64,000 nt of DNA from Pseudomonas resinovorans NBRC 106553 (GTDB taxonomy: Bacteria; Pseudomonadota; Gammaproteobacteria; Pseudomonadales; Pseudomonadaceae). This document shows positions 21,647 to 47,797 of this stretch, one piece after another. The translations under genes and the position numbers were made by a program. How positions within the stretch are numbered: position 1 is the first letter of the stretch; each line of letters begins with the position of its first letter. The notes below the pieces were generated by a model. It was not told the DNA's origin, made no database searches, and saw only the letters and a program-made list of their open reading frames with translations. The stretch covers positions 2,790,001 through 2,854,000 of the forward strand of contig NC_021499.1 in the NCBI RefSeq assembly GCF_000412695.1. The letters run 5' to 3'.

Positions 21647-21676
21647 GATAGGTCGCATCCCGACAAGCGATTAGTC
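21647..21676 (+). promoter_or_regulatory. Shared 30-bp box, copy A (putative LysR site)
   Basis: It starts GATA, has GCATCCCGAC in the middle and ends CGATTAGTC. It aligns without gaps with copies at 43431 and 47768. The right half has the interrupted dyad GACAAG-CGA-TTAGTC. It lies 159 bases upstream of the DUF1302 start codon. Confidence 0.6.
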
Positions 21677-21807
21677 AGAGACCACGAGCCACGTCAACCT
21701 TTGCCCGTCGCCCGGTCAATCCCGCCGAGCGATGCCACTCCGGCATTTCGACCGCACCGGTCCGGATTGCCTTGATCCGGCCGGTGGTGGCTCACAAGAA
21801 GTTCGCC

Positions 21808-21825
21808 AACAAGAACAATAAGAGG
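21808..21825 (+). promoter_or_regulatory. Hfq/Crc-type CA motif in the leader of the long operon
   Basis: AACAAGAACAATAAGAGG: overlapping AAnAAnAA matches (AACAAGAA, AAGAACAA, AACAATAA) running into the ribosome site of the DUF1302 gene. One of the strongest copies in the window. Confidence 0.65.
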
Positions 21826-21834
21826 GTTCGTTCG

Positions 21835-23514
21835 ATGGCTATACGCTATAGCGCCGCATCGCGGTGTGCGCCGTTCACCCTGACGCTCGCCGCGGTTTTG
21901 GTATGCGGTGCCCCCTCCATCCACGCCTTCGAGATCCAGACCGGCAATCCGGACCTGAGTCTGCGCTGGGACAACACGCTCAAGTACAGCTCCGCCTGGC
22001 GCCTGAAGGACCAGAGCAGCAAGCTCAGCGAAGGGCAGGTCGCCCTGAACCAGGACGACGGCGACCGCGCCTTCGACAAGGGGCTGATCTCCAACCGTCT
22101 CGACATCCTCTCCGAACTGGACATCGGCTACCGCGATTTCGGTGCCCGCGTCAGCGGCGCCGCCTGGTACGACACCGAATACCAGAAGGACAACGACAAC
22201 GACGACCCGACCCGCGCCAACGCACGCTCGGTGGCCTACAACGAGTTCACCGACGATACCCGGCACCTGCATGGCGGCGACGGCGAGATTCTCGACGCCT
22301 TCGTCTACTGGAACGGCTCCCTGGCCGACAGGGCCACTTCGGTACGCCTGGGCCGCCACGGCCTGATCTGGGGCGAGAGCCTGTTCTTCGGCGCCAACGG
22401 CATCGCTGGCGGCATGGCCCCGGTGGATGTGGTCAAGGCCATCTCCGTGCCGAACACCCAGTTCAAGGAGATCACCCGTCCGGTCAACCAACTGTCCACC
22501 ACCTACCAACTGACCGACGACGTCTCCCTCGGCGCCTTCTACCAGTTCGAGTGGGAGGAGACCCGCCTGCCCGCTGCCGGCAGCTACTTCTCGGTCAGCG
22601 ATGTGCTGGGCGAAGGGGCCGAACGCCTGATCGTCGGCGCGCCTTTCCCGGACTTCCTGGGGGGCAACCCGAGTAGCCCGGCGGCCTTCTTCCATGGCAA
22701 CGACAAGGAAGCCAAGAGCTCGGGGCAGGGTGGCCTGCAGCTGCGCTACAGCGCGGAAACCGTCGAATACGGCCTCTACGCCATCCAGTACCACGACAAG
22801 ACGCCCAAGCTGTACCTCAAGCCCAGCGCCACCGGGCCGAACTTCGCCACCGGCGAGGTAGGCCAGTTCTACTGGGTCTACCCGGAGGACATCCGTGCAC
22901 TGGGTGCGAGCTTCGCCACCACGGTGGAGGAGTTCAGCTTCGCCGGTGAAGCCTCCATGCGCTGGAACATGCCGCTGGTTTCCAACGGCCAGACCGTGCT
23001 GCCCGGCGTAGCCGCCGACAACGACAACAACCCGCTCTACGCGGTGGGCCGCACCGCCCACGTCAACCTGAACGTGCTCGCCTCGCTCGGCCCGTCGTTC
23101 ATTTCCAACGAGGCCAGTCTGGTGGGCGAGATCGCCTGGAACCGCCTGCTCAACGTCACCAAGAACCAGGCGGCGCTGGACCCTGGCGCTACCGACGACG
23201 GCGTCGGCATCAAGCTGGTCTACAGCCCGACCTATCGCCAGGTGTTCCCCGGCGTCGACCTCAGCGTGCCGGTGGGCATCAGCTACTTCCCCATGGGCAA
23301 GTCGGCGGTGGTCAGCAGCTTCGGACCGGACAACGGCGGCGACTTCAACATCGGCGTCAGCGCCACCTATCTCGACCGGGTCACCCTGGGCCTGACCTAC
23401 ACGCACTTCTACGGCTCGGAAGACACCAACCTCGACTCCGTATCGCACTTCACCTTCAAGCAGTCGCTGAAGGACCGGGACTACCTGGCCTTCTCCGTGA
23501 AAACCACCTTCTGA
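21835..23514 (+). CDS. DUF1302 family outer-membrane protein
   Basis: 559 residues. The signal peptide (CAPFTLTLAAVLVCGAPSIHA) is cleaved near residue 30. The mature part has alternating beta segments rich in Tyr, Gly and Asp and ends in a C-terminal Phe (VKTTF), as outer-membrane beta-barrels do. Early motif NPDLSLRWDNTLKYSSAWRLKDQS is typical of DUF1302. As I recall, such genes occur with DUF1329, YCF48 and MMPL genes in catabolic clusters for hydrophobic substrates, suggesting passage across the outer membrane; this is not proven. First gene of the operon, with DUF1329 11 bases downstream. Confidence 0.9.
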   Translation: MAIRYSAASRCAPFTLTLAAVLVCGAPSIHAFEIQTGNPDLSLRWDNTLKYSSAWRLKDQSSKLSEGQVALNQDDGDRAFDKGLISNRLDILSELDIGYRDFGARVSGAAWYDTEYQKDNDNDDPTRANARSVAYNEFTDDTRHLHGGDGEILDAFVYWNGSLADRATSVRLGRHGLIWGESLFFGANGIAGGMAPVDVVKAISVPNTQFKEITRPVNQLSTTYQLTDDVSLGAFYQFEWEETRLPAAGSYFSVSDVLGEGAERLIVGAPFPDFLGGNPSSPAAFFHGNDKEAKSSGQGGLQLRYSAETVEYGLYAIQYHDKTPKLYLKPSATGPNFATGEVGQFYWVYPEDIRALGASFATTVEEFSFAGEASMRWNMPLVSNGQTVLPGVAADNDNNPLYAVGRTAHVNLNVLASLGPSFISNEASLVGEIAWNRLLNVTKNQAALDPGATDDGVGIKLVYSPTYRQVFPGVDLSVPVGISYFPMGKSAVVSSFGPDNGGDFNIGVSATYLDRVTLGLTYTHFYGSEDTNLDSVSHFTFKQSLKDRDYLAFSVKTTF

Positions 23515-23525
23515 GGGACTTGCGC

Positions 23526-24890
23526 ATGACTATCCCGTTCACTCTCAAGACCTTCTGCCTGGCCCTGGTCGGCGCCGCCGCGCTGAGCCTGCAACCGGCC
23601 CTGGCGGCTTCCGTCGACGACCTCGGCAAGAGCCTGACCCCGCTGGGCGCCGAGCGCGCCGGCAACGCCGACGGCAGCATCCCGGCCTGGGATGGCGGCT
23701 ACACCAAGGTGGACCCGTCGTTCAAGGAAGGCGGCAAGCGCGGCGATCCCTTCGCCGCCGACAAGCCGCTGTTCACCATCACCGCGAAGAACCTGGACCA
23801 GTACGCCGACAAGCTCAGCGATGGTGTCAAGGCCATGTTCAAGCGTTACCCCGAGACCTACCGCATCGACGTCTACCCGACCCGCCGCAGTGCCGCGGCG
23901 CCGCAATGGGTCTACGACAACACCCTGAAGAACGCGCAGAACGCGAAGCTGGTGGACAGCAGCGCCGGCCCGGTACCGGAAGGAGCCTTTGGCGGCATCC
24001 CGTTCCCGGTGCCGAAGAACGGCGCCGAGGCCATGTGGAACCACTTGCTGAACTGGCGCGGTACTTCGGTGGCGATGGATTTCCGCCACTACCTGATGAC
24101 CGCCGACGGCGCACAGGTGCTGACCACCGACGGCAAGGCCGTGCAGGAGATGCCCTACTACTACCAGGACGGCAGCGCCGCCACTTTCGAGGGCGACTAC
24201 TGGCTGTTCCGCCTGCTCAACGTCGGACCGCCGCTGCGCGCCGGCGAACAGATCATGGGGCGCACCAACCTCAACGGCGACAAGTCCCAGGCCCACGTCT
24301 ACCTGACCGGCCAGCGCCGCGTGCGCAAGCTGCCTAACGCCTGCTGCGACACACCGACGCCGGCCACCGCCGGAGTGATGTCCTTCGACGAGCTGAGCGT
24401 GTTCCAGGGCCGCATGGACCGCTTCGACTGGAAGCTGGTGGGCAAGCAGGAGATGTACATCCCCTACAACACCAACAAGGCGCAGACCGCCGCCAAGCCC
24501 GAGGACCTGTTCGACAAGCACCACTTGAACCCCGACTACGTGCGCTGGGAACTGCACCGCGTGTGGGTGGTGGAAGCCGATCTCGCCCCTGGCAAGCGTC
24601 ACCAGTTGCCCAAGGGCCGCTACTACCTCGACGAGGACACCTGGCAAGCGCTGCTCGGCGACCGCTGGGACGCCAATGGCCAACTGGCCAAGACCCTCTG
24701 GTCGCTGCCCGCCGTGATGCCCGACCTGCCCGCCGTGGCCCAGCTGTCCTCGGGCTTCTACGACCTGGTCTCCGGTGCCTGGTTCATCCAGAACCTCTAC
24801 GCCGGCAAGGACCAGCAGTACGGCGTGGTCGATCGCTACAAGCCGGCGGAGTTCTCCCCGGCGGCGATGGCCGGACGCGGCGTGCGTTGA
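23526..24890 (+). CDS. DUF1329 family periplasmic/outer-membrane lipid-binding-like protein
   Basis: 454 residues. Signal peptide FTLKTFCLALVGAAALSLQPALAA. Family marks: LGKSLTPLGAERAGNADGSIPAWDGGYT near the start, DRFDWKLVGKQEMYIPYNTNKAQ in the middle, HRVWVVEADLAPGKRHQLPKGRYYLDEDTW late. DUF1329 proteins are related to the LolA/LolB-type half-barrel that carries lipids. With DUF1302 before it and an MMPL transporter after it, carriage of a hydrophobic compound is plausible. The start at 23526 is preferred to the TTG two codons upstream. Confidence 0.9.
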   Translation: MTIPFTLKTFCLALVGAAALSLQPALAASVDDLGKSLTPLGAERAGNADGSIPAWDGGYTKVDPSFKEGGKRGDPFAADKPLFTITAKNLDQYADKLSDGVKAMFKRYPETYRIDVYPTRRSAAAPQWVYDNTLKNAQNAKLVDSSAGPVPEGAFGGIPFPVPKNGAEAMWNHLLNWRGTSVAMDFRHYLMTADGAQVLTTDGKAVQEMPYYYQDGSAATFEGDYWLFRLLNVGPPLRAGEQIMGRTNLNGDKSQAHVYLTGQRRVRKLPNACCDTPTPATAGVMSFDELSVFQGRMDRFDWKLVGKQEMYIPYNTNKAQTAAKPEDLFDKHHLNPDYVRWELHRVWVVEADLAPGKRHQLPKGRYYLDEDTWQALLGDRWDANGQLAKTLWSLPAVMPDLPAVAQLSSGFYDLVSGAWFIQNLYAGKDQQYGVVDRYKPAEFSPAAMAGRGVR

Positions 24891-24947
24891 TGAGGTGAGG
24901 GGAGGGCGCCAGTCTTCCCCTGGTTTGGCTGAAATTCGAGGTAGAAC

Positions 24948-26036
24948 ATGAACAGATTGCGTCAGGTGAGCGGCCTGCTGCTAGCCCTCGCCCTGCCGAT
25001 CGCAGCGCCCTGTCTGGCGGATGCCAAGGCCGTCGGCGATGTCCTGGAAAGCCCCGCGATGCAGGTGCCGAATGCCGAACGCGCGGTCTTCACCGACCTC
25101 GCCCGCGCCGGCGATCGCCTGGTGGCGGTGGGCGAGCGTGGCCTGATCCTGCTGTCCGACGACAACGGCCAGCAATGGCGCCAGTCCCGGGTGCCGGTGT
25201 CGGTGGGGCTGACCGCCGTGCAGTTCGTCGACGCCAGCCATGGCTGGGCGGTCGGCCATGCCGGCGTGGTCCTGGCGACCACCGACGGCGGCGAAAACTG
25301 GGCCTTGCAGCTCGACGGCCACCGCGCCGCGCAGCTGGAACTGGATGCCGCACGCCGCGAACTGCCGGTTGCGGCGGACGCCGAAGCCGCCGAGGTGCGG
25401 GTGCAGACCGCCGAGCGTCTGGTACAGGAAGGACCGGACAAACCCTTCCTGGCCCTGGCCTTCAGCGATGCCCGCCACGGCCTGGTGGTGGGCGCCTACG
25501 GCCTGGCCTTCGCTACCTACGATGGCGGCGTCACCTGGCAATCCGTGGTGGGGCGCATCGATAACCCGATGGGACTGCACCTCTACGCCGTGGCCCGTCA
25601 GGGTGCGGCCTGGTTCCTTGCCGGCGAGCAGGGCTACCTGGCGCGCTCGCCGGATGGTCAGCAGTTCCAGCAGCTGGAAAGCCCCTACGCCGGCACCCTG
25701 TTCACCCTCGCCAGCCGCGCCGATGGCGCGCTGCTGATCGCTGGCCTCAAGGGCCATGCCTTCCTCCTCGCCGAGGGCGCCGACAGCGCAGAAGCCTTGC
25801 CGATGATGGCACCAGTGTCCTTCAGCGACGCCATCCGCCTGGATGACGGTCGCGTGCTCCTGGCCAACCAGTCCGGCGGCCTGTTCGCCAGCACCTCAGG
25901 CCACTTCGCCCCGGCGGCCAGGCCCCTGGGCAAGCCGGTTTCGGGCGTCGTCCAGGCCGCCGACGGCAGCCTGGTCCTTGCTGGTTTCACCGGCCTGTCG
26001 CGCCTGCCGCAGTCCGCCGTTTCCGCTTCGGAGTGA
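24948..26036 (+). CDS. YCF48/BNR-repeat periplasmic protein
   Basis: 362 residues: signal peptide (MNRLRQVSGLLLALALPIAAPCLA), then beta-propeller repeats with the sialidase-like mark S/T-x-D-x-G-x-x-W (LSDDNGQQWRQS, TTDGGENWALQ, TYDGGVTWQSV). Related to Ycf48, the photosystem II assembly factor, but in heterotrophs such proteins accompany RND/MMPL transporters. No catalytic residues are evident; it may be a periplasmic scaffold for the transporter encoded four bases downstream. Confidence 0.88.
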   Translation: MNRLRQVSGLLLALALPIAAPCLADAKAVGDVLESPAMQVPNAERAVFTDLARAGDRLVAVGERGLILLSDDNGQQWRQSRVPVSVGLTAVQFVDASHGWAVGHAGVVLATTDGGENWALQLDGHRAAQLELDAARRELPVAADAEAAEVRVQTAERLVQEGPDKPFLALAFSDARHGLVVGAYGLAFATYDGGVTWQSVVGRIDNPMGLHLYAVARQGAAWFLAGEQGYLARSPDGQQFQQLESPYAGTLFTLASRADGALLIAGLKGHAFLLAEGADSAEALPMMAPVSFSDAIRLDDGRVLLANQSGGLFASTSGHFAPAARPLGKPVSGVVQAADGSLVLAGFTGLSRLPQSAVSASE

Positions 26037-26040
26037 GTTC

Positions 26041-28500
26041 ATGAATTCCGCTCGCCAAGCCATTCCGTCCAGCCAGGACGCGTTCGACCCCCGCTCCGGT
26101 TCGCTGGTGGAACGGGCCCTGTTCAACCACCGTCACTGGGTGCTGCTGCTGTGCCTGCTGACCACCGTGCTGCTCGGCTGGCAGTCGACCCGCCTGGAGC
26201 TGAACGCCAGCTTCGAGAAGATGATCCCCACCGGGCATCCCTATATCGCCAACTACCTGGCCAACCAGAAGGAACTGTCGGGCCTGGGCAACGCCCTGCG
26301 CATCGCCGTCGCCCATCGCAACGGCGACATCTACGATGCCGACTACCTGCGCACCCTGCAGGCCCTGAGCGACCAGATCTACCTGCTGCCGGGCGTCGAC
26401 CGTGCCTATATGAAGTCGCTGTGGACGCCGGCCACCCGCTGGGTGTCGGTGACCGAAGAGGGCCTCGATGGCGGCCCGGTGATCCCCGACGAGTACGACG
26501 GTAGCCCGGCGTCCCTGGGTGACCTGCGGCGCAACGTGCAACTGTCCAACGAGATCGGCCAGCTGGTGGCCTTCGACCAGCGCTCCAGCATCATCTACGT
26601 GCCGCTGCTATCGCGGACCCCGGACGGCAAGCCGCTGGACTACAAGGCCCTGTCCGACCAGCTGGAGGCCCTGCGGGCGAAGTTCCAGAGCGACAGCGTC
26701 GACATCCACATCACCGGCTTCGCCAAGAAGGTGGGCGACCTGATCGAGGGCCTGGAGCAGATCTTGCTGTTCTTCGCCGTCGCCATCCTCATCACCACCG
26801 TGGTGCTCTACGGCTACACCCGTTGCGTGCGCAGCACCCTGCTGGTGGTGCTCTGCTCGCTGGTGGCGGTGGTCTGGCAGCTCGGCCTGCTGCCGCTCTT
26901 GGGCTACCAGCTGGACCCCTATTCGGTGCTGGTGCCGTTCCTGGTGTTCGCCATCGGCATGAGCCACGGCGCGCAGAAGATGAACGGCATCATGCAGGAC
27001 ATCGGCCGAGGCATGCACCGCGTGGTGGCGGCGCGCTTCACCTTCCGCCGTCTGTTCCTCGCCGGCCTCACCGCGCTCCTGTGCGACGCGGTCGGTTTCG
27101 CCGTGCTGATGATCATCCAGATCCAGGTGATCCAGGACCTGGCGATCATCGCCAGCATCGGCGTGGCGGTACTGATCTTCACCAACCTGATCCTGCTGCC
27201 GGTGCTGCTTTCCTATGTCGGCGTCAGCCCCCGTGCCGCCGAGCTCAGCCTGAAGAGCGAGCGGGCGGAGCAGGGCGGCCAGGCCCGGCACCTGTTCTGG
27301 CGCTTCCTCGACCTGTTCACCCGCAAACCCTGGGCCGCCATCTGTGTGGGCGTCAGCCTGGTGATGGCGGTGCTCGGCTTCATGGTCAGCCTGCACCTGG
27401 CCATCGGCGACCTCGATGCCGGCGCCCCCGAGCTGCGTGCCGATTCGCGCTACAACCAGGACGACGCCTTCATGACCCGCAGCTACGGGGCCAGCAGCGA
27501 CCTCTTTGCGATCATGGTGCGTACGCCGGACAGCGCCTGCGCGCGCTACGACATCCTGCACAAGGTGGACGAACTGGACTGGCAACTGCGCAGCCTGCCC
27601 GGCGTGGATTCCACCAACTCCCTGGCGCTGCTCAACCGCCGCATGCTGGTGGGCCTCTCCGAAGGCAGCCCGAAGTGGTATGAGCTGCAGAACAACCAGG
27701 CGATGCTCAACATGATCACCGCCAGTGCGCCGCGCGGCCTCTACAACGAGTCGTGCAGCCTGCTGACACTCTACGTCTACCTGACCGACCACAAGGCAGA
27801 GACCCTGACCCGCCTGGTGGAGCATGTCGAAGCCTTCGCCGCCGTCAACGACACGGACGAAGTGAAGTTCCAGCTGGCCGCCGGCAATGCCGGGATCGAG
27901 GCCGCCACCAACATCGTGGTCAAGGAAGCCAACCGCGAGATGCTGTTCTGGGTCTACGGCGCGGTGATCCTGCTCTGCCTGATCACCTTCCGCTCCTGGC
28001 GCGCGACCCTCTGCGCGGTGATCCCGCTGATGCTCACCTCGATCCTCTGCGAGGCGCTGATGGTCTGGCTGGGGATCGGCGTCAAGGTCGCCACCCTGCC
28101 GGTGATCGCCCTGGGTGTGGGCATTGGCGTGGACTATGCGCTCTACGTGATGAGCATCCTGCTCGGCCATCTGCGCCAGGGTGCCAGCCTCTCCGAAGCC
28201 TATTACCGGGCGCTGCTCTCCACCGGCAAGGTGGTGATGCTCACCGGCGTGACCCTGGCCATTGGCGTCGGCACCTGGATCTTCTCGCCTATCAAGTTCC
28301 AGGCGGACATGGGTGTACTACTGGCCTTCATGTTCGTCTGGAACATGGTCGGCGCCCTGGTGCTGCTGCCGGCGCTCGCCTACTTCCTGCTGCCGGCCAC
28401 TCGCCGCCGCGACGCGGCCGCCGAAGACGCCGCCGCGCCGGCGCCCTGGCGCGAGGCACGGACCGACCGGCCGCTGCTGCTGGACAGCGTCAATTCCTGA
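26041..28500 (+). CDS. MMPL/RND superfamily transporter
   Basis: 819 residues with the RND plan of one membrane helix, a periplasmic domain and five helices, repeated (TM1 near HWVLLLCLLTTVLLG; helices near residues 240-400 and 635-780). The second half has CLITFRSWRATLCAVIPLMLTSILCEALMVWLGIGVKVATLP and GVGIGVDYALYVMS, marks of the MMPL/sterol-sensing branch rather than the multidrug AcrB branch. It is too short for AcrB. It probably moves a hydrophobic substrate or intermediate, powered by protons, together with the three gene products before it. Overlapping starts on the same strand indicate one transcript. Confidence 0.92.
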   Translation: MNSARQAIPSSQDAFDPRSGSLVERALFNHRHWVLLLCLLTTVLLGWQSTRLELNASFEKMIPTGHPYIANYLANQKELSGLGNALRIAVAHRNGDIYDADYLRTLQALSDQIYLLPGVDRAYMKSLWTPATRWVSVTEEGLDGGPVIPDEYDGSPASLGDLRRNVQLSNEIGQLVAFDQRSSIIYVPLLSRTPDGKPLDYKALSDQLEALRAKFQSDSVDIHITGFAKKVGDLIEGLEQILLFFAVAILITTVVLYGYTRCVRSTLLVVLCSLVAVVWQLGLLPLLGYQLDPYSVLVPFLVFAIGMSHGAQKMNGIMQDIGRGMHRVVAARFTFRRLFLAGLTALLCDAVGFAVLMIIQIQVIQDLAIIASIGVAVLIFTNLILLPVLLSYVGVSPRAAELSLKSERAEQGGQARHLFWRFLDLFTRKPWAAICVGVSLVMAVLGFMVSLHLAIGDLDAGAPELRADSRYNQDDAFMTRSYGASSDLFAIMVRTPDSACARYDILHKVDELDWQLRSLPGVDSTNSLALLNRRMLVGLSEGSPKWYELQNNQAMLNMITASAPRGLYNESCSLLTLYVYLTDHKAETLTRLVEHVEAFAAVNDTDEVKFQLAAGNAGIEAATNIVVKEANREMLFWVYGAVILLCLITFRSWRATLCAVIPLMLTSILCEALMVWLGIGVKVATLPVIALGVGIGVDYALYVMSILLGHLRQGASLSEAYYRALLSTGKVVMLTGVTLAIGVGTWIFSPIKFQADMGVLLAFMFVWNMVGALVLLPALAYFLLPATRRRDAAAEDAAAPAPWREARTDRPLLLDSVNS

Positions 28501-28508
28501 ACTCCCAC

Positions 28509-28520
28509 AACAAGAACAAG
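28509..28520 (+). promoter_or_regulatory. Hfq/Crc-type CA motif before the 38-codon ORF
   Basis: AACAAGAACAAG with two overlapping AAnAAnAA matches, 8 bases after the transporter stop and 11 bases before the next ATG. Confidence 0.6.
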
Positions 28521-28531
28521 AGCAGATCGCG

Positions 28532-28648
28532 ATGACACGACTGATCACCACCTTGCGAAGCATCTGGAAGAGCCTGCCCGAGGCCGTCGGGCACTACGCC
28601 GAAGGCGCCTACGGGTTCATGTCGGAGGTGCGCCGTGAGCGCCGCTGA
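28532..28648 (+). CDS. 38-residue hypothetical protein inside the catabolic operon
   Basis: MTRLITTLRSIWKSLPEAVGHYAEGAYGFMSEVRRERR: basic at both ends with a helical centre, no signal or membrane segment. Its stop lies inside the MFS gene (overlap of 14 bases), so the two would be translationally coupled. Its leader has an exact CA motif. It could be a true small protein or a leader that couples MFS translation to Hfq/Crc control. No family recognised. Confidence 0.45.
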   Translation: MTRLITTLRSIWKSLPEAVGHYAEGAYGFMSEVRRERR

Positions 28649-29843
28649 ACGCCAGGCGGGCCTGCCGCAATCCCTGTTGCTGCTCTTTGGCAGCTGCCTG
28701 CCGGTGCTGGGCGCGGTGCTGCTGGCGCCGGTGTTGCCGCGCATGCAGGCGCACTTCGCCGAGACGCCGGGCGCCGAAGTGCTGGTGCCCATCAGCCTGA
28801 CCATCCCGGCCCTGGTGATCGCGCTGCTGGCACCCTTCGCCGGGGTCATCGCCGACCGCCTGGGGCGCAAGCCGCTGCTGCTGGTCTCGATGGTGCTCTA
28901 CAGCCTGTTCGGCCTGCTGCCGCTGTGGCTGGAGTCGCTGCCGGGGATCGTCATCAGCCGTGCCGGCCTGGGCCTGGCGGAGGCCGGCATCATGACCTGC
29001 TGCACCACCTTGATGGGCGACTACTACCAGGGTGAGCGCCGCGAACGCCTGTTCGCCCTGCAGATGGTCGCCACCTCGCTCTCGGCGGCGGTGTTCATCG
29101 CCCTGGGCGGGGCCCTCGGGCAGAACGACTGGCGCACGCCCTTCATGCTCTACGGCGCCGGCCTGCTTGTCCTGCCGCTGATGGCGACCCTGCTCTGGGA
29201 ACCCAAGGCCGGCGAGGCCCGGCCTGCGTCCAGCGAGTCCGGGGGTTTCCCCTGGGGCGCGCTGCTGCCGCTGTACGGGCTCACCCTGCTGGCCGGCGTC
29301 AGCCTGTTCATCGTGCCGGTGCAGGCGGGCTTCCTGCTGACCCTGCTGCATGTGGATTCGCCCCAGCAGATCGGCATGACCATGGGCGCCAACCAGCTCG
29401 GTGTGCTGGCCGGCGCCCTGAGCTTCCGCCTGCTCGGCGGCCTGCCTCGGCAGCACTTGCTGTTGCTGGCCTTCGCCATCGCCGGTGGCGGCGGGTTGCT
29501 GATGGCCAATGCCGGCAACCACGCGCTGGTGATAGTCGCGGTGCTGGTCAATGGCCTGGGCATCGGCCTGATGCTGCCGACGCTGATCACCTGGGTGATG
29601 AGCCGGGTCAGCTTCGCCCAGCGCGGCCGCGCCACCGGTGGCTTCACGGCAGCCTTGTTCGCCGGCGAGTTCATCAGCCCCCTGGTGGTGTTCGGCCTGA
29701 ACGCCGGTGTGGTGGCCGAACTGCCGGCGGCGCTGGCCCTGGTGGGCATCGCCCAGCTGCTGCTGGCGCTCGCCTGCCTGGCGCTGCCGAAGCTGTTCCG
29801 TTCGCTCGGCGCCGCCGTTTCCACCACACCTGATCACGCCTAG
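28635..29843 (+). CDS. MFS transporter
   Basis: 402 residues with twelve predicted membrane helices. The loop 2-3 signature GVIADRLGRKPLLL and the central QNDWRTPFMLYG are visible. GTG start, inside the end of the preceding small ORF. DHA1-like drug or aromatic-acid family; the direction of transport is uncertain. As part of a catabolic operon it could import the substrate or export a toxic intermediate. Confidence 0.9.
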   Translation: MSAAERQAGLPQSLLLLFGSCLPVLGAVLLAPVLPRMQAHFAETPGAEVLVPISLTIPALVIALLAPFAGVIADRLGRKPLLLVSMVLYSLFGLLPLWLESLPGIVISRAGLGLAEAGIMTCCTTLMGDYYQGERRERLFALQMVATSLSAAVFIALGGALGQNDWRTPFMLYGAGLLVLPLMATLLWEPKAGEARPASSESGGFPWGALLPLYGLTLLAGVSLFIVPVQAGFLLTLLHVDSPQQIGMTMGANQLGVLAGALSFRLLGGLPRQHLLLLAFAIAGGGGLLMANAGNHALVIVAVLVNGLGIGLMLPTLITWVMSRVSFAQRGRATGGFTAALFAGEFISPLVVFGLNAGVVAELPAALALVGIAQLLLALACLALPKLFRSLGAAVSTTPDHA

Positions 29844-29851
29844 AGGTAGCC

Positions 29852-30442
29852 ATGGCCCACCCCCTGGAAAGCGCCGCGCTCGACCAACTGTTCCTGCGCG
29901 CACGCTCGCATAATCTCTGGCTGGACCGCGAGGTGCCAGACACGCTGCTGCAGCAGCTTTACCACGCCCTGCGCCAGGGCCCGACCAGCAACAACTGCTG
30001 CCCGGCGCGTTTCGTCTTCGTGCGCAGCCCGGAGGCCAAGCAGAAACTCCTGCCGGCCCTCAAGGGGCATAACGGCGACAAGATGCTGCAAGCGCCGGTG
30101 ACCGTCATCGTCGCCTGGGACAGCCGCTTCTTCGAGCTGCTGCCCGAGCTGTTCCCGATCTATGACGCCGGCGCGGCCTACCGTGACGATCCGCAGGCGG
30201 CGTTCACCGCCGCGTTGCGTAACAGCAGCCTGCAGGGCGCCTATCTGATCATGGCGGCGCGCGCCCTGGGGCTGGACTGCGGCCCCATGTCGGGCTTCGA
30301 CAATGCCCGGGTGGACGCGGCCTTCTTCCCGGACGGCCGCTTGCGCAGCAACTTCCTCTGCTGCCTGGGCTATGGCGATGACACCGGCCTGCGCCCGGCC
30401 GGTCCGCGCCTGTCCTTCGAGCAGGGGTGCCGCATCCTATGA
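29852..30442 (+). CDS. Nitroreductase-family protein of the RutE/HadB type
   Basis: 196 residues, FMN-dependent nitroreductase fold: HNLWLDREVPDTLLQQLYHALRQGPTSNNCCPARFVFVRSPEAKQKL, then SSLQGAYLIMAARALGLDCGPMSGFDNARVD and FLCCLGYGDD. This matches malonic-semialdehyde/3-hydroxypropionate reductases (RutE), which reduce small aldehydes. Here it may reduce a semialdehyde or unsaturated acid made in the pathway. It overlaps the next gene by ATGA. Confidence 0.87.
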   Translation: MAHPLESAALDQLFLRARSHNLWLDREVPDTLLQQLYHALRQGPTSNNCCPARFVFVRSPEAKQKLLPALKGHNGDKMLQAPVTVIVAWDSRFFELLPELFPIYDAGAAYRDDPQAAFTAALRNSSLQGAYLIMAARALGLDCGPMSGFDNARVDAAFFPDGRLRSNFLCCLGYGDDTGLRPAGPRLSFEQGCRIL

Positions 30443-31215: not shown

Positions 31216-31226
31216 AAGGAGTTTCC

Positions 31227-33753: not shown

Positions 33754-33764
33754 GGACTGCCACC

Positions 33765-34553: not shown

Positions 34554-34557
34554 GAAC
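34546..34557 (+). promoter_or_regulatory. Hfq/Crc-type CA motif before the sulfatase
   Basis: AAGAATAAGAAC overlaps the end of the cyclase gene and lies 13 bases before the GTG start of the sulfatase; it contains AAGAATAA and AATAAGAA. Confidence 0.5.
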
Positions 34558-34569
34558 AGGAGCATTCCC

Positions 34570-38981: not shown

Positions 38982-39002
38982 GTTCGGTTCTCGTCTCGGC
39001 AA

Positions 39003-40160
39003 TCAGGCGGTGCGGCCGCCGAGGGTCTCAGCGACCCAGTCGGCAATGTATTGGCCGGCGTTGATGGAGTTGTCGAAGCTGGAGTGCTGCACACCGCCTT
39101 CGCGCGGGGTGAAGATCTTCAGCTCGCGCTTCGGGCTGTTCACCAGTTGCTCGTAGGTGCGGTGGGCCCATTTCAGCGGGATCTGCGAGTCCTGCTCGCC
39201 GTGGGTGACCAGGAAAGGCACCTTGATGCGCTCCACCACGCCGTCCAGGTGGACGTTCTCGGCGATGGTCATGAACTCGTCGACGTCCTTGCCGCCCCAG
39301 ACCCAGCGCACGTGCTCCCAGTAATGCGGCACGGGGAAGCTGCCCTCGCGTTCCAGGCGGCGCTTCTGCACGTCGCGCCAATCATGGTTGGCGCCCCACA
39401 CCACGCCGCAGGCGAAGCGCGGTTCGAACGCCACCACGCGGGGGCAGTAGTAGCCACCGAGGGACACGCCTTCGCAGCCGATGCGGCTGGCGTCCACGTC
39501 CTCGCGGGTCTCCAGCCAGTCGAACACGCGGCTGCCCCAGTGCTCGGTATCGAAGCGGGCTTTCAGGTCGTGCAGGCGCAGCGCCTCGCCGGTGCCCGGC
39601 TGGTCGATCACCAGCGACGACACGCCGCGCTTGGCGAGCCAGGCCGGCAGGCCGACGCGGTATTTCATTTCCTTGGTGGAATCCAGGCCGTTGAGCTGCA
39701 CCAGTAGCGGCGCGGGACCTTCCACGCCCTCGGCGCGGACGAACAGCCCGGAGATCACCTTGCCCTCGTAGGGGATTTCCACCCGTTTGCAGTTCTCGCC
39801 GGAGAGGGCGATGCCACGGGCGAAGGTGTCGAGGAAGCCTTGGTACAGCTCCAGGCGACCGGGGGCGCCGTGGGCCTGCAGGCGCTCGCAGGTCAGGTAG
39901 TAGGTGGCGGCGCGGTTGTATTTCTCGCCGGCCGAGAGCAGGCGGCCTTGCTCTTCGTCTTCGCGGGCGAGGTCGCAGAGCTTGTCGGCCATCTTCGACC
40001 AGGTTTCACGGAAGGCCCGGGTGCCGGCGGCGTCCGGTTGCTTGGCGGCCTCCTGCAGGGGCTCGCACATTTCGACGATCTCGCCGATGCGCGCACCCAT
40101 CTCCAGGGCCAGGTCCACGGAGAGATTCCAGACGTAGTTCGTGGGGAAGTAACGGAACAT
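39003..40160 (-). CDS. Alpha/beta hydrolase, FrsA / 2,6-dihydroxypseudooxynicotine hydrolase-like
   Basis: 385 residues. An N-terminal helical cap of about 130 residues precedes the hydrolase core: nucleophile in CEGVSLGGYYC, acid in THGEQDSQIPL, histidine in GGVQHSSF. The cap and the sequence DQPGTGEALRLHD resemble the C-C hydrolase of nicotine catabolism and FrsA-type esterases. It may cleave a C-C bond next to a ketone in a ring-fission or side-chain product. The start at 40160 is supported by an A-rich leader with a CA motif. Confidence 0.85.
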   Translation of the reverse strand: MFRYFPTNYVWNLSVDLALEMGARIGEIVEMCEPLQEAAKQPDAAGTRAFRETWSKMADKLCDLAREDEEQGRLLSAGEKYNRAATYYLTCERLQAHGAPGRLELYQGFLDTFARGIALSGENCKRVEIPYEGKVISGLFVRAEGVEGPAPLLVQLNGLDSTKEMKYRVGLPAWLAKRGVSSLVIDQPGTGEALRLHDLKARFDTEHWGSRVFDWLETREDVDASRIGCEGVSLGGYYCPRVVAFEPRFACGVVWGANHDWRDVQKRRLEREGSFPVPHYWEHVRWVWGGKDVDEFMTIAENVHLDGVVERIKVPFLVTHGEQDSQIPLKWAHRTYEQLVNSPKRELKIFTPREGGVQHSSFDNSINAGQYIADWVAETLGGRTA

Positions 40161-40169: not shown

Positions 40170-40348
40170 TTCCTTCTTCTGATCCGGGGCGCGCCTTCGG
40201 GCGGTTGGCGCCGGGCGCAAGGCGGGCGCTCCCTGGATGACTGCTCCCGCATCAGGCAGTGGTGCGGGCGTCGACCACCCGGCTGGGGCGGCCCTGGCAA
40301 GCTCGCATGGGGTCAGGGATTGGACAAATCGCTTGTTCGGATGCCAGC

Positions 40349-40365
40349 TATCTCGCGGCGAGATA
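40349..40365. promoter_or_regulatory. Perfect 8-bp palindrome
   Basis: TATCTCGC-G-GCGAGATA: perfect arms with a 1-base centre, between the divergent hydrolase and chemoreceptor genes. Likely an operator; the regulator is unknown. Confidence 0.5.
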
Positions 40366-40483
40366 CCTTGCGGCAGCCATGGCCAACGGCGATGCCACGC
40401 ATCGCCAGTCTCGATTGGTGGGTCCGCCGCGGGGCTGGCTAGGGTACGCGGCCGCGCTCCATGCGCCCGATCCGCTGAGGAGG

Positions 40484-42463
40484 ATGCCCTTGCCCACTAC
40501 CACTCCACGATGGCCAACGAACGCCGCCGCGCCATGGCGTTGGCTGGTCCACCTGAGCGTTGGCGGCAAGCTGTCGCTGGGCTTCGGCCTGGTGCTGGCG
40601 TGCACGCTGGGGGTGGCCTTTGCCGCCCTGCACGCCTTGCAGCTCAGCCAGTCCAGCTCGGCCCAGCTCCGGGTGCTGGATCGCCTGCAGGGCGCCCTGG
40701 CCGAGGCGCGTTTGGCGGAGCGCGCGTTCGGCCTGGCGCCCTCGGCCGAGGCCGCTGCGCAGGTCGACGCCGCCTTGCGCCAGCTGCAGGCCGAGGCTCC
40801 CCGGTCCGGCTCGGGGGACGACTTTCGCACGGCCCTGGGGGCTGGCGCCCAGGGCTATCTCGATGCCTTCCACCGCTACGCCGATGCAAGGCGCACGGCG
40901 GTGGATGCGCGGTTGCGCATGCAGGGACTGGCCGAGGACACCGGCCAGAGTTTCAGCGGACTGTTCCTCGATCAGGTGGACGACATCAATCTCGCGCTGG
41001 AGCAGGGTGGTGTCCCCGACCCGCAGCAGATGCAGTTGCTGGAAGAGGCGGCCAGTCTGCGAGAGCGCCTCGCCTACCTTCGGGACTCCGAGTTGTATTT
41101 CTCCCTGGAGGCGCAGAAGCGCTTTCGCGATGACTGGGAAAACCGCGTCAACGAGCTGGGCAGTGCCCTGTCCAGCCTGGCCTCGCGCCTGGACGGCGAG
41201 CGTCGAGGCGCGCTCGACGAGGCGAACCGCGCCTTGGACCAGTACCGCCAGGCGTTCCTGCGTTTCGTCGCCAGCGGCGAGGCGGCGGCCTCGGCCCAGG
41301 CCGGCATGAGCGACGCCGCGACCCAGGTGACCGGGCTGTTGCAGCGGGAAAGGGAGCGACGCGCCGAGGCAGATGGCGCGATGCGCAAGCGGCTCGACCT
41401 GCAGCTGGCGGCCATGGTGTTGCTGGCCCTGGCAACGAGCATCGCGGCCTGCCTGGCGATCCGGCGCGCCATCGTGGCGCCGTTGCGGCAGATGCTCGGC
41501 CTGGCCCGACGGATCGCCGCCGGTGACCTGGCCGAGGGCTCGCTGCCCATCGCTCGGCGTGATGAGCTCGGCCAGTTGGGCGAGGCCATCGGCCAGATGC
41601 AGGAGGCCCTGCGCGTGCTGGTCGGGCGAATCGGTGCGGAAGTGGCGCGCCTCGACCAGGCTGCCGGCTCCCTGGCCGGGATGGTCGGGCGTACCGGGCA
41701 TGGTGTCAGCGCCCAGCGCCAGCAGGCCGATCGTGTTGCCGACGCCATGCAGCGGGTAACCCGCTCGGCGGCCCAGGTGAACGTCCAGGTGGAGGGTAGC
41801 CAGGCCGCCCTGGGCGATGCGGGAAAGCTGATTCGCGAGGGCGATGCGCTGATGCGCGAAGCCAGTGCCAGCCTGCAGCGGCTGTCCCGGGAGGTGAGCG
41901 GCAGCGCCGCGTCCATGCAGCTGCTGGAAACCCAGAGCGAGGCCATCACCGCGGTGCTGGATGTGATCAGCTCGGTGGCGGAGCAGACCAACCTGCTGGC
42001 CCTCAATGCGGCGATCGAAGCGGCCCGCGCCGGAGAGCATGGTCGTGGTTTCGCCGTGGTGGCGGACGAGGTTCGCGCCCTGGCCGGACGCACGCGCAGT
42101 TCCACCGGCGAGATCGAGACGATGATCCAGCGTCTCGGTCAAGTGACCCGCGAGACGGCCGAGGGTTTGCGCGGCAGCCAGCGGCTGACCGCGGAGGGGG
42201 TGGACCTGGCGGGGCGCGCCAGCGGCGTGCTGGCCTCGATCACCGACGCCATGGGGCAGCTCGAACGCACGGGGCTGACCATCGCCCAGGCCGCGGCCCA
42301 GCAACACGAACTGGCCTGCCAGGTGGACGAGGCGGTGGCGAGGGTCGGCGAGGTGGTGGAGCAGAACGCGAGGGACTGCGCCGAACTGGAGGCGGCTTCG
42401 GACAGCCTGCAACTGCTCAGTGCCAGCCTGGGCGGAGCGGTGGGCGCGTTTCGCCGTGGCTAG
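40484..42463 (+). CDS. Methyl-accepting chemotaxis protein
   Basis: About 659 residues. TM1 is near residues 24-45 ([22 protein letters not shown]), followed by a periplasmic helical sensor of about 260 residues. TM2 is near residues 305-325 ([21 protein letters not shown]), then HAMP ([26 protein letters not shown]). The signalling tip is [42 protein letters not shown] near residues 490-530. The start is uncertain: the frame is open to 40259, and AGGAGG abuts the ATG at 40484. Its position in the island suggests chemotaxis toward the island's substrate. Confidence 0.9.
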
Positions 42464-42475
42464 CGCGCCTGAACC

Positions 42476-43399
42476 TCAGGGCGAAACCAGGTATTCCGGG
42501 CGCTGGAGCATGTCGATCAGTTTTTCCCGCAGCCAGCGCAGCATGGGATCGCGGTCCAGGCTGCGGTGCCAGCCCATGTACTCCTGCATTGCCGGCAGTT
42601 CCACCGGCGGCGGCAGGATGCGCAGCGGCAGGGTGCGCGCATAGAGTCGCGCCAGGCGGCTATGCATGGTGGCGACCCGTTCGGTGCCGATCACCAGTTG
42701 GGGCAGGGTGTTGAAGTCGTGGGTGATGACCTCCAGGCGGCGCTTGCAACCGTACTGGGACATGAACCACTCCTCGATGCCCGGTGTGCGGCTACGGCCG
42801 AAGGCGACGCTGACGTGTCCCAGCTCCAGGTAGCGCTCCAGCGTCAGCCGCTCGCCGACGGCCTGGTTCTGGTCCCACACCACGCACACGTGCTGCTCCT
42901 CGAACAGCAACCGGGAGGGGTGATCCTTCACGACGTAGTTCTCCGGCGCGATCATCAGGTCCACTTCGCCGCGCATCAGCATCTCGACGGCGGTTTCGCC
43001 AGGGCTGATGAGTTCGAAGGTCACCTGCGGCGCCTCGTGGTTCACCTCGCGGATCACCTCGGCGAAGAGCACGCTGATCAGATAATCCGAGGCCATGATG
43101 CGGAAATGCCGCCTGCTCTCGGCGATGTCGAAGACCGGCTTGGCGGTGATGGAGGTCTGGATCTTCAGCAGGACTTCGCGGACCGGGATCTCCAGTTCCT
43201 TGGCCAGCGGGGTCGGCATCATCTTGCGCCCCACCTGCACCAGCAGGTCGTCCTCGAAGTAAGTACGCAGGCGGCCAAGCACGCCGCTGGTGGCGGACTG
43301 GGTCATGTGCAGGCGGGTGGCGGCGCGGGTGATGTTCTGTTCTTCGAGCAGCACATCCAGGGCCACCAGGAGGTTCAGGTCCAGGTGCTTGAAGCGCAT
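42476..43399 (-). CDS. LysR family regulator (NodD-like clade)
   Basis: 307 residues. DNA-binding start FKHLDLNLLVALDVLLEEQNITRAATRLHMTQSATSGVLGRLRTYFEDDLLVQVGRKMMPTPLA, followed by a periplasmic-binding-like effector domain (FRIMASDYLISVLFAEVIREV). The NodD/LinR-like branch senses aromatic compounds. Divergent from the FAD monooxygenase gene, with the 30-bp box in the shared region. Clearly related to the second LysR at 48223. Confidence 0.93.
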   Translation of the reverse strand: MRFKHLDLNLLVALDVLLEEQNITRAATRLHMTQSATSGVLGRLRTYFEDDLLVQVGRKMMPTPLAKELEIPVREVLLKIQTSITAKPVFDIAESRRHFRIMASDYLISVLFAEVIREVNHEAPQVTFELISPGETAVEMLMRGEVDLMIAPENYVVKDHPSRLLFEEQHVCVVWDQNQAVGERLTLERYLELGHVSVAFGRSRTPGIEEWFMSQYGCKRRLEVITHDFNTLPQLVIGTERVATMHSRLARLYARTLPLRILPPPVELPAMQEYMGWHRSLDRDPMLRWLREKLIDMLQRPEYLVSP

Positions 43400-43430
43400 A
43401 TCAGGCGTCTCTTGTTGTATTTATTTTCGC

Positions 43431-43460
43431 GATACCCTGCATCCCGACTAACGATTAGTC
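43431..43460 (+). promoter_or_regulatory. Shared 30-bp box, copy B (putative LysR site)
   Basis: It contains the perfect dyad GACTAA-CGA-TTAGTC at its right end and GCATCCC in the middle. It lies between lysR and the divergent FAD monooxygenase, 31 bases from the lysR start. It aligns without gaps with copies A and C and differs from A at only a few positions. Confidence 0.7.
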
Positions 43461-43607: not shown

Positions 43608-44732
43608 ATGAGTGATATCAGCAAGGTACTCATCGTCGGCGGTGGTATCGGTGGACTCTGCGCGGCCATCGCGTTGCGGCGCCAGGGCATCTCTGTGGAC
43701 CTGGTGGAGATCAAGTCCGAGTGGACCGTCTACGGCGTCGGCATCATCCAGCAGAGCAACGTGGTCCGTGAAATGGCGCGCCTCGGTGTGCTCGACCACT
43801 ACCTGGACGCCGCCTATGCCTTCGATGACGTGGGCATCTACGACCTGCAGGGCAATGCCCGCGTACGCATCCCAGGCCAGCGCCTGGCGGGCCCGGAGTA
43901 CCCGGCCAACGTCGGTATCTCGCGGCTGGCCCTGCACCAGGTGTTGAGCGGCACCGCCATCGAGCTCGGCGCAGAGGTCCGCCTGGGGATCACGGTGGAG
44001 ACCCTGGAGCAGGATGCCGATGGCGTCGATGTGGTCTTCACCGACGGCAGCCACGGCCGTTACGAGCTGGTAGTCGGCGCCGATGGTGTCTACTCGAAGA
44101 TCCGCGGCATGCTCTTCGGCGATACCTACACGCCACGCTTCACCGGCCAGGCCGTGTGGCGCTACAACTTCCCCCGGCACCCGTCCATCGACCACCTGGC
44201 CAGCTACACCGGTGCCGAGGGCAACGCCGGCCTGGTGCCGCTGGCAGACAACCTGATGTACATGTTCTCCACCTCCCACGAGCCGGGTAACCCCTGGTAC
44301 GAACCGGAGCAGTTGGCCGAACTGATGCGTGACCGCATCAAGCACATCGGCGGCCTGGTGGGGGAGCTGCGTGAGCAGATCACCGACAGCGGCCAGGTGG
44401 TGTACAAGCCGATGGAAGTGGTGTTCGTCGATGAGCCCTGGTTCAAGGGCCGGGTGCTGCTGATCGGCGATGCCGCCCACGCCACCACGCCGCACCTGGG
44501 GCAGGGTGCCGGCATGGCCATCGAGGACGCCCTGGTGTTGAGCCTGGAACTGGTCTCCGGCGGCTCGCTCGACGAACGCCTGGAGCGCTTCATGGCGCGT
44601 CGCTTCGAACGCTGCAAGTACATCAGCGGCAACTCCATCCTTGCCGGCGAGCGCGAGATGGCCCACGACGCGAGCTTCGATCGCATTGGCCTGACCAAGG
44701 CCATGCTCGCGCGCACCGCCGAGCCCATCTGA
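43608..44732 (+). CDS. FAD-dependent aromatic-ring monooxygenase
   Basis: 374 residues. Group A flavin hydroxylase: GGGIGGLCAAIALRRQGI (FAD dinucleotide motif), VVGADGVYSKIR (DG motif), GRVLLIGDAAHATTPHLGQGAGMAIEDA (GD motif). It is of the salicylate or 3-hydroxybenzoate hydroxylase type, a single-component NAD(P)H enzyme that adds OH to a phenolic ring, sometimes with decarboxylation. The first gene of a two-gene unit with a PDR reductase. The region before it carries both the LysR box and the CA motif. Confidence 0.93.
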   Translation: MSDISKVLIVGGGIGGLCAAIALRRQGISVDLVEIKSEWTVYGVGIIQQSNVVREMARLGVLDHYLDAAYAFDDVGIYDLQGNARVRIPGQRLAGPEYPANVGISRLALHQVLSGTAIELGAEVRLGITVETLEQDADGVDVVFTDGSHGRYELVVGADGVYSKIRGMLFGDTYTPRFTGQAVWRYNFPRHPSIDHLASYTGAEGNAGLVPLADNLMYMFSTSHEPGNPWYEPEQLAELMRDRIKHIGGLVGELREQITDSGQVVYKPMEVVFVDEPWFKGRVLLIGDAAHATTPHLGQGAGMAIEDALVLSLELVSGGSLDERLERFMARRFERCKYISGNSILAGEREMAHDASFDRIGLTKAMLARTAEPI

Positions 44733-45807: not shown

Positions 45808-45895
45808 CGTAGGATGGGTCGGGCGGCGTTCCGCGAGCTTGCGATACCCATCAGCCCTGTCCCCATGGGTATCGCTGCGCTCAACCCATCCTACG
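45808..45895. repeat. GTAGGATGGGT palindromic repeat, copy 1
   Basis: CGTAGGATGGGT at the left is mirrored by ACCCATCCTACG at the right, with an inner dyad GCGATACCCAT / ATGGGTATCGC. It shares the core GGCGGGCGGCGTTCCGCG-like segment and the GATACCCATCA segment with 57891-57976. A dispersed extragenic palindrome. Its right arm overlaps the 3' end of tetR. Confidence 0.8.
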
Positions 45896-46510: not shown

Positions 46511-46546
46511 GCCGATTAACCATTGACCGGAGTTGAGGGGATGACT

Positions 46547-46567
46547 AATGTGAGCGGTGCTTACATT
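46547..46567. promoter_or_regulatory. Probable TetR operator dyad
   Basis: AATGTGAG, 5-base spacer CGGTG, CTTACATT: 8-bp arms with one mismatch, in the region between the divergent tetR and Rieske genes, 37 bases from the tetR start codon. Confidence 0.55.
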
Positions 46568-46682
46568 GCTCGTTCAATCGTCCCACGAGCCATTCACCGC
46601 CGCTGCAACGGCGGAAAGGCGCGAGCATATCAGGGGGACGAGGGCTCGATGCAGGCAACCCTGTCGATACGCCCATGAGGAC

Positions 46683-46690
46683 AAGAACAA
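46683..46690 (+). promoter_or_regulatory. Hfq/Crc-type CA motif at the Rieske start
   Basis: AAGAACAA, one base before the ATG at 46692 within GGACAAGAACAAGATG. The Shine-Dalgarno sequence is weak, so the A-rich tract dominates the initiation site. Confidence 0.6.
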
Positions 46691-46691
46691 G

Positions 46692-47753
46692 ATGAAATTC
46701 CTGAAGAACGCCTGGTACGTCGCCGCCTGGGACAACGAGGTGGAGCCCGGCGACCTGTTCGCCCGTACCCTGCTCAACGAGTCCGTGCTCTTCTTCCGTG
46801 ATGGGGCCGGCAAGGTGCAGGCCATCCACAACCGCTGCCCACACCGTTTCGCACCGCTGTCCATGGGCAAGCTGTGCGGCGGCCAGGTGCAGTGCGCCTA
46901 CCACGGGCTGGAGTTCGACGGCAGTGGCGCCTGCACCCGCAACCCCCATGGCGATGGCGCCATCCCCCGCGCTGCGCGGGTGCGGGCCTACCCGGTGGCG
47001 GAAAAGTACAGCGTCATCTGGATCTGGATGGGCGATGCCGAGGCGGCGGACGAGGCGCTGATCCCGGACTTCGGCTGCATGGACCCGGCGCGTTTCTACG
47101 TCGCAAAGCGCTACCTGCATGCGCGCGCCAACTACGTGCTGGAGTCGGACAACATCCTCGATCTGTCGCACATCCAGTACTTGCACCCGAGCACCCTCGG
47201 CAGCAGCGATGTCAGCCAGGCCATCACCCGCGTCGAGCAGCAGGGCGAGACGATCTGGTCGTACCGCCAGACCGTGGCCGAGATCATGCCGGACTTCCTC
47301 TACGGCGCCATGGGCATCCCCTTCGGTACGCCGGTGGACCGCTGGATCGACGTGCGCTGGGACGCCCCGGCCAACATGCTCCTGCTGGCCGGAGCGGTGG
47401 CCACCGGGCGGCCCCGTGCCGAAGGCCGGGAGACTCCGCTGCCGCACCTGTTCACCCCGGAGACCGATACCACCACCCACTACTGGTTCTCCTTCCCGAT
47501 GCCACGGGAAATGGGCGAGATGGGCGAGCGCATCGCCGAAGAGCAGGTGTCGGCGCTCAACCAGCCGTTCAGCACCGAGGACCTGCCGATGCTCGAAGCC
47601 CAGCAAGGAATGATCGGCGACGCCGACTTCTGGTCCCTCAAACCGGTGCTGTTGCCCGGCGACGCGGCTGCGGTGCGCGCCCGCCGCGTGCTGGACAAGC
47701 TGATCGCCGATGAGCAGGCGGCACAGATCAGCGTGCGCGCGCTGGAGGCCTGA
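46692..47753 (+). CDS. Rieske aromatic oxygenase, VanA-type alpha subunit
   Basis: 353 residues from MKFLKNAWYVAAW, the usual opening of vanillate O-demethylase oxygenases; the open frame further upstream is not coding-like. Rieske ligands C49, H51, C68, H71; iron ligands D157, H160, H165 (DNILDLSHIQYLH). LFTPETDTTTHYWFSFPM is the group's C-terminal mark. Probably an O-demethylase or hydroxylase of an aromatic acid, using the reductase at 44824. It is divergent from tetR. Confidence 0.94.
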   Translation: MKFLKNAWYVAAWDNEVEPGDLFARTLLNESVLFFRDGAGKVQAIHNRCPHRFAPLSMGKLCGGQVQCAYHGLEFDGSGACTRNPHGDGAIPRAARVRAYPVAEKYSVIWIWMGDAEAADEALIPDFGCMDPARFYVAKRYLHARANYVLESDNILDLSHIQYLHPSTLGSSDVSQAITRVEQQGETIWSYRQTVAEIMPDFLYGAMGIPFGTPVDRWIDVRWDAPANMLLLAGAVATGRPRAEGRETPLPHLFTPETDTTTHYWFSFPMPREMGEMGERIAEEQVSALNQPFSTEDLPMLEAQQGMIGDADFWSLKPVLLPGDAAAVRARRVLDKLIADEQAAQISVRALEA

Positions 47754-47767
47754 GTATCCCGAGTGGC

Positions 47768-47797
47768 GATACCTCGCATTGCCACTCGCGATTGGTT
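47768..47797 (+). promoter_or_regulatory. Shared 30-bp box, copy C (putative LysR site)
   Basis: GATACC, GCAT, CGATTGG in the same spacing as copies A and B; it is the most diverged copy. It overlaps an inverted repeat CGAGTGGC (47760-47767) / GCCACTCG (47781-47788). It lies 55 bases before the GTG of the small Rieske gene. Confidence 0.5.

Follow-up and report, generated by a model that had tools for sequence, protein, structure and literature searches.

A nod-box-type element and a NodD-clade LysR regulator as the putative switch of a catabolic regulon in Pseudomonas resinovorans

Legume-nodulating rhizobia use the nod box to answer plant flavonoids, and NodD is the rhizobial sensor. The nod box has been defined as tandem ATC-N9-GAT palindromes within an element of about 47 bp (PMC5596368). 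A NodD-like regulator of flavonoid catabolism is already known in Herbaspirillum seropedicae, where FdeR, described as NodD-like in the title of the paper on it, is the LysR regulator of the naringenin-degrading fde operon (cited in PMC8481569) and gives a footprint of 60 bp (PMC10799723). In Variovorax, isoflavone catabolism was reported to involve a flavin adenine dinucleotide (FAD) monooxygenase, a glyoxalase-type dioxygenase, a hydrolase like 2,6-dihydroxypseudooxynicotine hydrolase, and cupins, with homologues of the set in Pseudomonas (PMC11069340). Among the matches listed in the open-access literature, no report described a nod box, or an element resembling one, in Pseudomonas. In this work, we analysed a 64,000-nucleotide stretch of Pseudomonas resinovorans NBRC 106553 (NC_021499.1, positions 2,790,001 to 2,854,000; hereafter the window), in which an original prediction had placed one 30-bp box ahead of three catabolic units and linked them in a regulon with two LysR proteins. 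We consider it probable that the box is part of a nod-box-type operator with two ATC-N9-GAT dyads 22 bp apart, that it is bound by the NodD-clade regulator LysR1 with a flavonoid-type phenolic as ligand, and that transcription is thereby activated. What appears to be new is that a catabolic regulon of Pseudomonas has a candidate operator of the nod-box type together with a regulator of the NodD clade.

The three predicted 30-mers (A, B, and C) are real and align without gaps (A-B 24/30, A-C 21/30, and B-C 21/30 identical), and they have GATA, GCAT, and CGATT in common. Two further copies lying between them, D and E, had been overlooked. Box D agrees with A at 25/30 and box E with C at 24/30, and the two diverge from each other between the hydrolase gene and the chemoreceptor gene. 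All five boxes share one orientation relative to the next gene downstream, which starts at 21835 (DUF1302), 40160 (hydrolase), about 40490 (chemoreceptor), 43608 (FAD monooxygenase), and about 47852 (Rieske ferredoxin). With the pattern GATANNNNGCATNNNNACNNNCGATTNGT at up to three mismatches, five matches were found in the window, compared with a mean of 0.04 in shuffled windows, none of which (0/100) reached five. In the 6.48-Mb genome, the box at up to two mismatches was matched seven times, five of them inside the cluster, and the backwards control gave none. A looser pattern found five perfect matches genome-wide, all in the cluster, and elsewhere one at one mismatch and five at two. The architecture AT-N10-GAT-N7-AT-N9-CGATT was also perfect at five places, all in one 26-kb region; at one mismatch there were 13 matches in the genome, counting one on the complementary strand of box A. 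The original prediction had named many matches in unrelated regions as the outcome that would count against it, and it withstands these pattern scans.

The element extends to the left past the 30-mer, because an AT located 12 nt before the GAT is invariant in the five window copies. The same AT is present in all 86 unique extended boxes of the family (loci L001-L018, L047, and L074 onwards were left out), although these boxes were chosen by the letters of their right part only. The element reads AT(C)-N9-GAT-N7-AT(C)-N9-GATT, and what is conserved is a pair of AT(C)-N9-GAT dyads at a distance of 22 bp. The tandem ATC-N9-GAT arrangement of the nod box is found in its strict form in 56 of the 86 boxes, and the relaxed form AT-N10-GAT-N7-AT-N10-GAT is kept in 79; in the window, boxes A and D are strict, and B, C, and E each have one ATC changed to ATT or ATG. 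The dyad GACTAA-CGA-TTAGTC is indeed present in box B, but as the recognition unit that the original prediction had proposed it was rejected, since it is perfect in only 4 of the 86 boxes and therefore incidental. Among 67 boxes less than 80% alike over 145 bases, the downstream columns A at +50 (1.03 bits) and T at +54 (1.10 bits) stand out, and they are the columns of a putative -10-like TAnnnT at a fixed spacing to the box. With a -10-like element at this spacing, the left dyad would be situated near -65 and the right dyad over -35, which is the usual layout of LysR-activated promoters. The element thus looks like a promoter operator, with the start site placed by prediction.

Both LysR proteins of the cluster score above the cut-off for PF00126 and PF03466 and are LysR-type regulators. 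The original prediction had proposed looking for the box in other genomes with these genes. Among the 398 genomes of the family, the box is present in 39 (at most one mismatch), 36 have a LysR1 match (E ≤ 1e-90, five candidates scored per genome), and 35 have both; the Fisher value of 1.4e-44 overstates independence since the genomes are related. Four genomes have the box only. G029, G032, and G181 each contain one lone one-mismatch match, and in G177 boxes flank the LysR1 gene on both sides, with the gene reading in two frames (L193:2252-3147), either as a pseudogene or through a sequencing error. The LysR1-only genome, G286, has a 52-53% homologue beside DUF1302, and the sequence between them matches at two mismatches without the left AT (L196:3051-3080). 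In its right half (ACAATCGATT), this sequence resembles the nod box of rhizobia more closely than the other boxes from Pseudomonas do.

In the 25 boxed 3-kb loci L033-L057, LysR1 is present in 18 and at least one cluster gene in 24, with none in L047; here, as in the comparisons of relatives and of L197-L201, tblastn matches below 35-40% query coverage were dropped. In G002, box A is 0.8 Mb away from B and D, and A still precedes DUF1302, B the monooxygenase, and D the hydrolase. A LysR1-like gene (70-71%) adjoins the DUF1302 box in L197, L198, L200, and L201; the window has no such neighbour at this box, and the regulator of box A would thus be encoded at a distance. The 35 genomes with both box and LysR1 support a single regulon that joins the units of the original prediction (the 14-kb unit A, the FAD monooxygenase, and the small Rieske protein) and is tied to the LysR gene beside box B. 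That regulon was right in substance, wrong on the dyad, and larger than thought, as the hydrolase and extradiol dioxygenase genes (box D) and the chemoreceptor gene (box E) had been missed.

LysR1 is related to the nodulation regulators. Among its named plasmid relatives are NodD1 and NodD2 (45% identity), and unnamed LysR proteins are slightly higher (47%). Compared with NodD, the DNA-binding domain is 52-61% identical and the ligand domain 37-43%. In a tree of 27 proteins, a 15-row clade (100/98) stands apart from 12 other LysR proteins of the genome and includes LysR1, LysR2, seven NodD (of which four carry no annotation beyond LysR but are encoded next to nodA), three proteins from other family members, and three encoded beside similar catabolic operons; the tree was calculated without FdeR, NahR, and DntR, and the two-frame LysR1 of L193 was left out. 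The best NCBIfam model for both LysR1 and LysR2 is that of BsrA from Pseudomonas aeruginosa. However, their scores of 184.6 and 178.3 bits are far under the equivalog cut-off of 480, and the BsrA motif reported from systematic evolution of ligands by exponential enrichment (SELEX), NAGTAGACNNGTCTACTN, is unlike the box (PMC8407307), so a BsrA-type regulator was ruled out. The closest solved LysR ligand domain is 9iib, named only as a LysR family regulator.

The box itself is also similar to the nod box. Nine rhizobial nodA loci were scanned with a matrix of the Pseudomonas boxes, trained with the window's own copies included. A nod box was the top site in eight of them, and in six it was the nodA nod box itself; in the nodA locus L143 the nod box ranked third. 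The scan gave no such site in a nodD2 locus without nodA (L136) or in the catabolic plasmid clusters L138 and L139. Fifteen nod boxes and the Pseudomonas box were alike at one offset only (16.4 vs. 6.0 ± 2.1), a value reached by 1 in 20,000 column shuffles, with a nod-box pattern that was drawn up after the nod box of S. fredii had been inspected. The likeness beyond the triplets is therefore present, and weak in absolute score. Rhizobial and Pseudomonas systems share the ATC-N9-GAT-N7-ATC-N9-GAT register (the 7-bp spacer of the nod box was read from rhizobial loci), letters of the right half, several copies ahead of dispersed operons, and a regulator of the same clade. On the other hand, the right end of the Pseudomonas box is GATTNGTC, compared with ATTTTAC in the nod box, and the genes downstream, in a non-rhizobium, are catabolic, uptake, and chemotaxis genes. 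Because these are not nodulation genes, the element is nod-box-type and not a nod box proper. NodA had no match in the genome at E ≤ 0.001, an empty answer that alone proves little, and NodC had two weak partial matches (22% and 33% identity). In comparison with fde, both systems have a LysR regulator, in H. seropedicae one of flavonoid catabolism, and the FdeR footprint is near the nod box in size, but FdeR is reported to act in one fdeR-fdeA intergenic region with overlapping T-N11-A sites (PMC10799723), whereas the Pseudomonas tandem element precedes five units; FdeR was compared by its published description.

Outside the family, the element AT-N10-GAT-N7-ATC-N9-GAT (two mismatches) is situated on a plasmid of B. 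elkanii USDA 76 between a NodD-clade LysR gene and a VOC/Rieske/FAD gene run (L148:11882-11919). This is one of 12 catabolic-cluster loci outside the family, of which L081, L082, and L078 also have matches, with that of L148 lying in the LysR-operon interval. The element was absent at up to two mismatches from the other eight (L149, L138, L139, L075, L079, L080, L074, and L076), and it was rejected as a general feature of such clusters.

The genes behind the boxes probably break down aromatic plant compounds. In unit A, the DUF1302, DUF1329, YCF48-like, MMPL, and MFS proteins form a putative uptake set. The FAD monooxygenase shares 91% identity with the enzymes from M. resinovorans and M. furukawaii, so the host probably belongs to Metapseudomonas; homologues of this enzyme bear generic names among the 120 matches listed. 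Among solved structures, the dioxygenase is closest to a glyoxalase-fold protein without a name (3b59) and next closest to 2,3-dihydroxybiphenyl dioxygenase. An FAD monooxygenase, a glyoxalase-type dioxygenase, a C-C hydrolase, and a cupin thus occur together, as in fde/ifc-type sets, by family and not by orthology. Judged by its families, the gene set resembles the published (iso)flavonoid A-ring-cleavage set. The ifc isoflavone cluster of Variovorax sp. V35 has the same monooxygenase, dioxygenase, and hydrolase types as well as cupins; it differs in that the text describing it does not mention LysR (PMC11069340), and the two were likewise compared by family. Since the set matches that of Variovorax, a flavonoid-type phenolic is the likeliest candidate substrate, an assignment with about an even chance of being correct.

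Table 1. Boxes, genes, and motifs of the proposed regulon (window coordinates).
Feature	Position	Strand	Description
Box A	21635..21676	+	30-mer 21647-21676 with left dyad; -10-like CAACCT at 21695-21700
Box D	40323..40364	-	30-mer 40323-40352; oriented toward the hydrolase gene
Box E	40379..40420	+	30-mer 40391-40420; oriented toward the chemoreceptor gene; lowest score of the five
Box B	43419..43460	+	30-mer 43431-43460; between LysR1 and FAD monooxygenase; -10-like TAGCCT at 43479-43484
Box C	47756..47797	+	30-mer 47768-47797; 14 nt past the Rieske oxygenase stop codon; -10-like CAGCCT at 47816-47821
Unit A	21835..36207	+	DUF1302, DUF1329, YCF48-like, MMPL, MFS, nitroreductase, SDR, cupin, FAA hydrolase, epimerase, cyclase, sulfatase (Pfam)
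Cupin gene	31227-31799	+	Concealed in a longer open reading frame call; ATGA overlap with FAA hydrolase start at 31796
Extradiol-type dioxygenase, glyoxalase fold	38046..39002	-	Immediately after the hydrolase
Alpha/beta hydrolase	39003..40160	-	Best solved relative 2,6-dihydroxypseudooxynicotine hydrolase (2jbw)
Methyl-accepting chemotaxis protein	40490..42463	+	Pfam MCPsignal, HAMP; probable TTG start 40490 from comparison with relatives
LysR1	42476..43399	-	Pfam HTH_1 and LysR_substrate; NodD clade; proposed binder of the boxes
FAD monooxygenase	43608..44732	+	Gene that box B is oriented toward
Small Rieske ferredoxin-like protein	47852..48247	+	Probable GTG start
LysR2	48223..49149	+	NodD-clade LysR; likely GTG start 48223; would be part of the box C transcript
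AANAANAA sites	21808-21821, 28509-28519, 34546-34556, 40162-40169 (-), 43587-43597, 46683-46690		Just before regulon gene start codons

We hypothesize that each ATC-N9-GAT dyad would be a T-N11-A LysR site, repeating every 22 bp, and that LysR1 would occupy both dyads, the one near -65 and the one over -35. A plant phenolic of flavonoid type would be the ligand of LysR1, and transcription would be activated. The result would be a joint increase in uptake (DUF1302/DUF1329/MMPL/MFS), chemotaxis, ring hydroxylation (FAD monooxygenase and Rieske ferredoxin), extradiol cleavage, and C-C hydrolysis. LysR2, encoded behind box C, could provide a second input or feedback. A dispersed nod-box-type regulon accompanied by its regulator in 35 of 398 family genomes would provide a non-symbiotic relative of the nod switch, and with it one could ask in a simple way whether the plant signals read by rhizobia are also read by pseudomonads that colonise roots. 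Only tentatively, and with the balance against it, we suggest that the NodD/nod-box switch was not an invention of the legume symbiosis but is a branch of an older plant-phenolic-sensing operator-regulator pair that still runs catabolic and chemotactic regulons across Pseudomonas. If this is true, legume flavonoids would switch on Pseudomonas operons via a nod-box-type promoter, and the rhizobial and Pseudomonas systems might read each other's boxes.

Several observations weigh against the nod-box-type operator under LysR1. The 398 genomes are related, so the co-occurrence counts are not independent. Box B has two mismatches in L063, L065, and L066 despite the presence of LysR1 and the monooxygenase, and it was not found at up to two mismatches in L073, although both genes are present there. 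Most nod boxes score below zero with the matrix, and higher best scores are reached by some matrices with permuted columns; thus, the rank and place of the nod box are the evidence, and not the score. The catabolic clusters L138 and L149 have a LysR nearer to LysR1 than NodD is, and at up to two mismatches they are without the element. AT-N10-GAT also fits the NahR site, and some of the resemblance to the nod box may be shared more widely among LysR regulators. Furthermore, the flavonoid substrate is proposed from gene content.

It is possible, though we think it unlikely, that the box is a LysR operator of the usual catabolic kind, belonging to the broader group of NahR, NodD, and FdeR, its nod-box likeness being convergent or group-wide with no special history. 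The fit of AT-N10-GAT to other LysR sites points this way, as do Azospirillum and Burkholderia catabolic clusters that have a NodD-clade LysR and no tandem element. Such a reading would have to account for the 7-bp spacer, the letters of the right half (ATC, ACAA, and C-R-ATT), and the NodD clade all agreeing together.

A division of the boxes between the two regulators seems less likely still. Box C does lie upstream of a unit with a second, related LysR gene, as had been noted, and LysR2 is 41% identical to LysR1. In the proposed division, LysR1 would bind A, B, and D (..GAC.A.CGATTNGTC) and LysR2 would bind C and E (..CCA.TC.CGATTGGT). The boxes do form two similarity groups, A, B, and D sharing 22-25/30 and C and E 24/30, compared with 17-21/30 between groups. 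Moreover, wherever an E-type box occurs (eight relatives), LysR2 (75-85%) or a 45-48% relative is present too, and six without the E box have no match of at least 45% (L072 was assigned to neither group). However, the chemoreceptor gene accompanies the E box, so the link may run through gene content; the LysR2-like genes in L197-L201 have no box within 1.5 kb that scores above 8 by the matrix trained with the window's own copies; and the relatives compared are not independent. Of the two-LysR regulon, the regulon stands and the requirement for two LysR proteins does not, because among 15 relatives the LysR2 orthologue (75-85%) is present in four, and five others have a relative at 45-48%. In P. 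cuatrocienegasensis (L062/G402), where boxes B and D occur, LysR1 is the sole match at the search threshold, so LysR2 is not needed, and it was ruled out as an obligatory partner by relatives of this kind.

Returning to LysR1 as the proposed binder, a regulator of another family is very improbable: the MarR (20993-21469) and TetR (45881-46510) genes do lie inside the window, but the T-N11-A dyads with their -65/-35 geometry are LysR-like, and in L033-L057, of which 24 of 25 are boxed cluster loci, no MarR or TetR match was shown, compared with 18 loci containing LysR1. Chance similarity of upstream sequences can practically be dismissed, for although short GC-rich motifs recur in large genomes and three genomes hold lone one-mismatch matches, the shuffled windows and the genome-wide scans rule out a chance repeat and the box is conserved in relatives.

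A candidate second layer over the regulon is catabolite repression by Hfq/Crc. The motif AANAANAA has been published as a Hfq/Crc target near Pseudomonas start codons (PMC5429807), and in the window DUF1302, the hydrolase, and the FAD monooxygenase each have it directly ahead of the start codon. The window contains 21 overlapping matches, compared with 3.4 expected from composition. In relatives, the motif is present in 14 of 16 FAD monooxygenase leaders, the two misses being alignments that begin inside the gene. It was found in 3 of 18 hydrolase, 1 of 19 dioxygenase, 0 of 3 Rieske ferredoxin, and 0 of 4 chemoreceptor leaders; in many of these rows too, the end falls short of the true start or beyond it. 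Two gene pairs, each for a VanA-type Rieske oxygenase and a reductase, flank the regulon (18634-20717 and 44824-47753), which suggests O-demethylation of methoxylated aromatics. Genes for an RND efflux pump and a membrane-fusion protein are also located beside the regulon (50584-54902).

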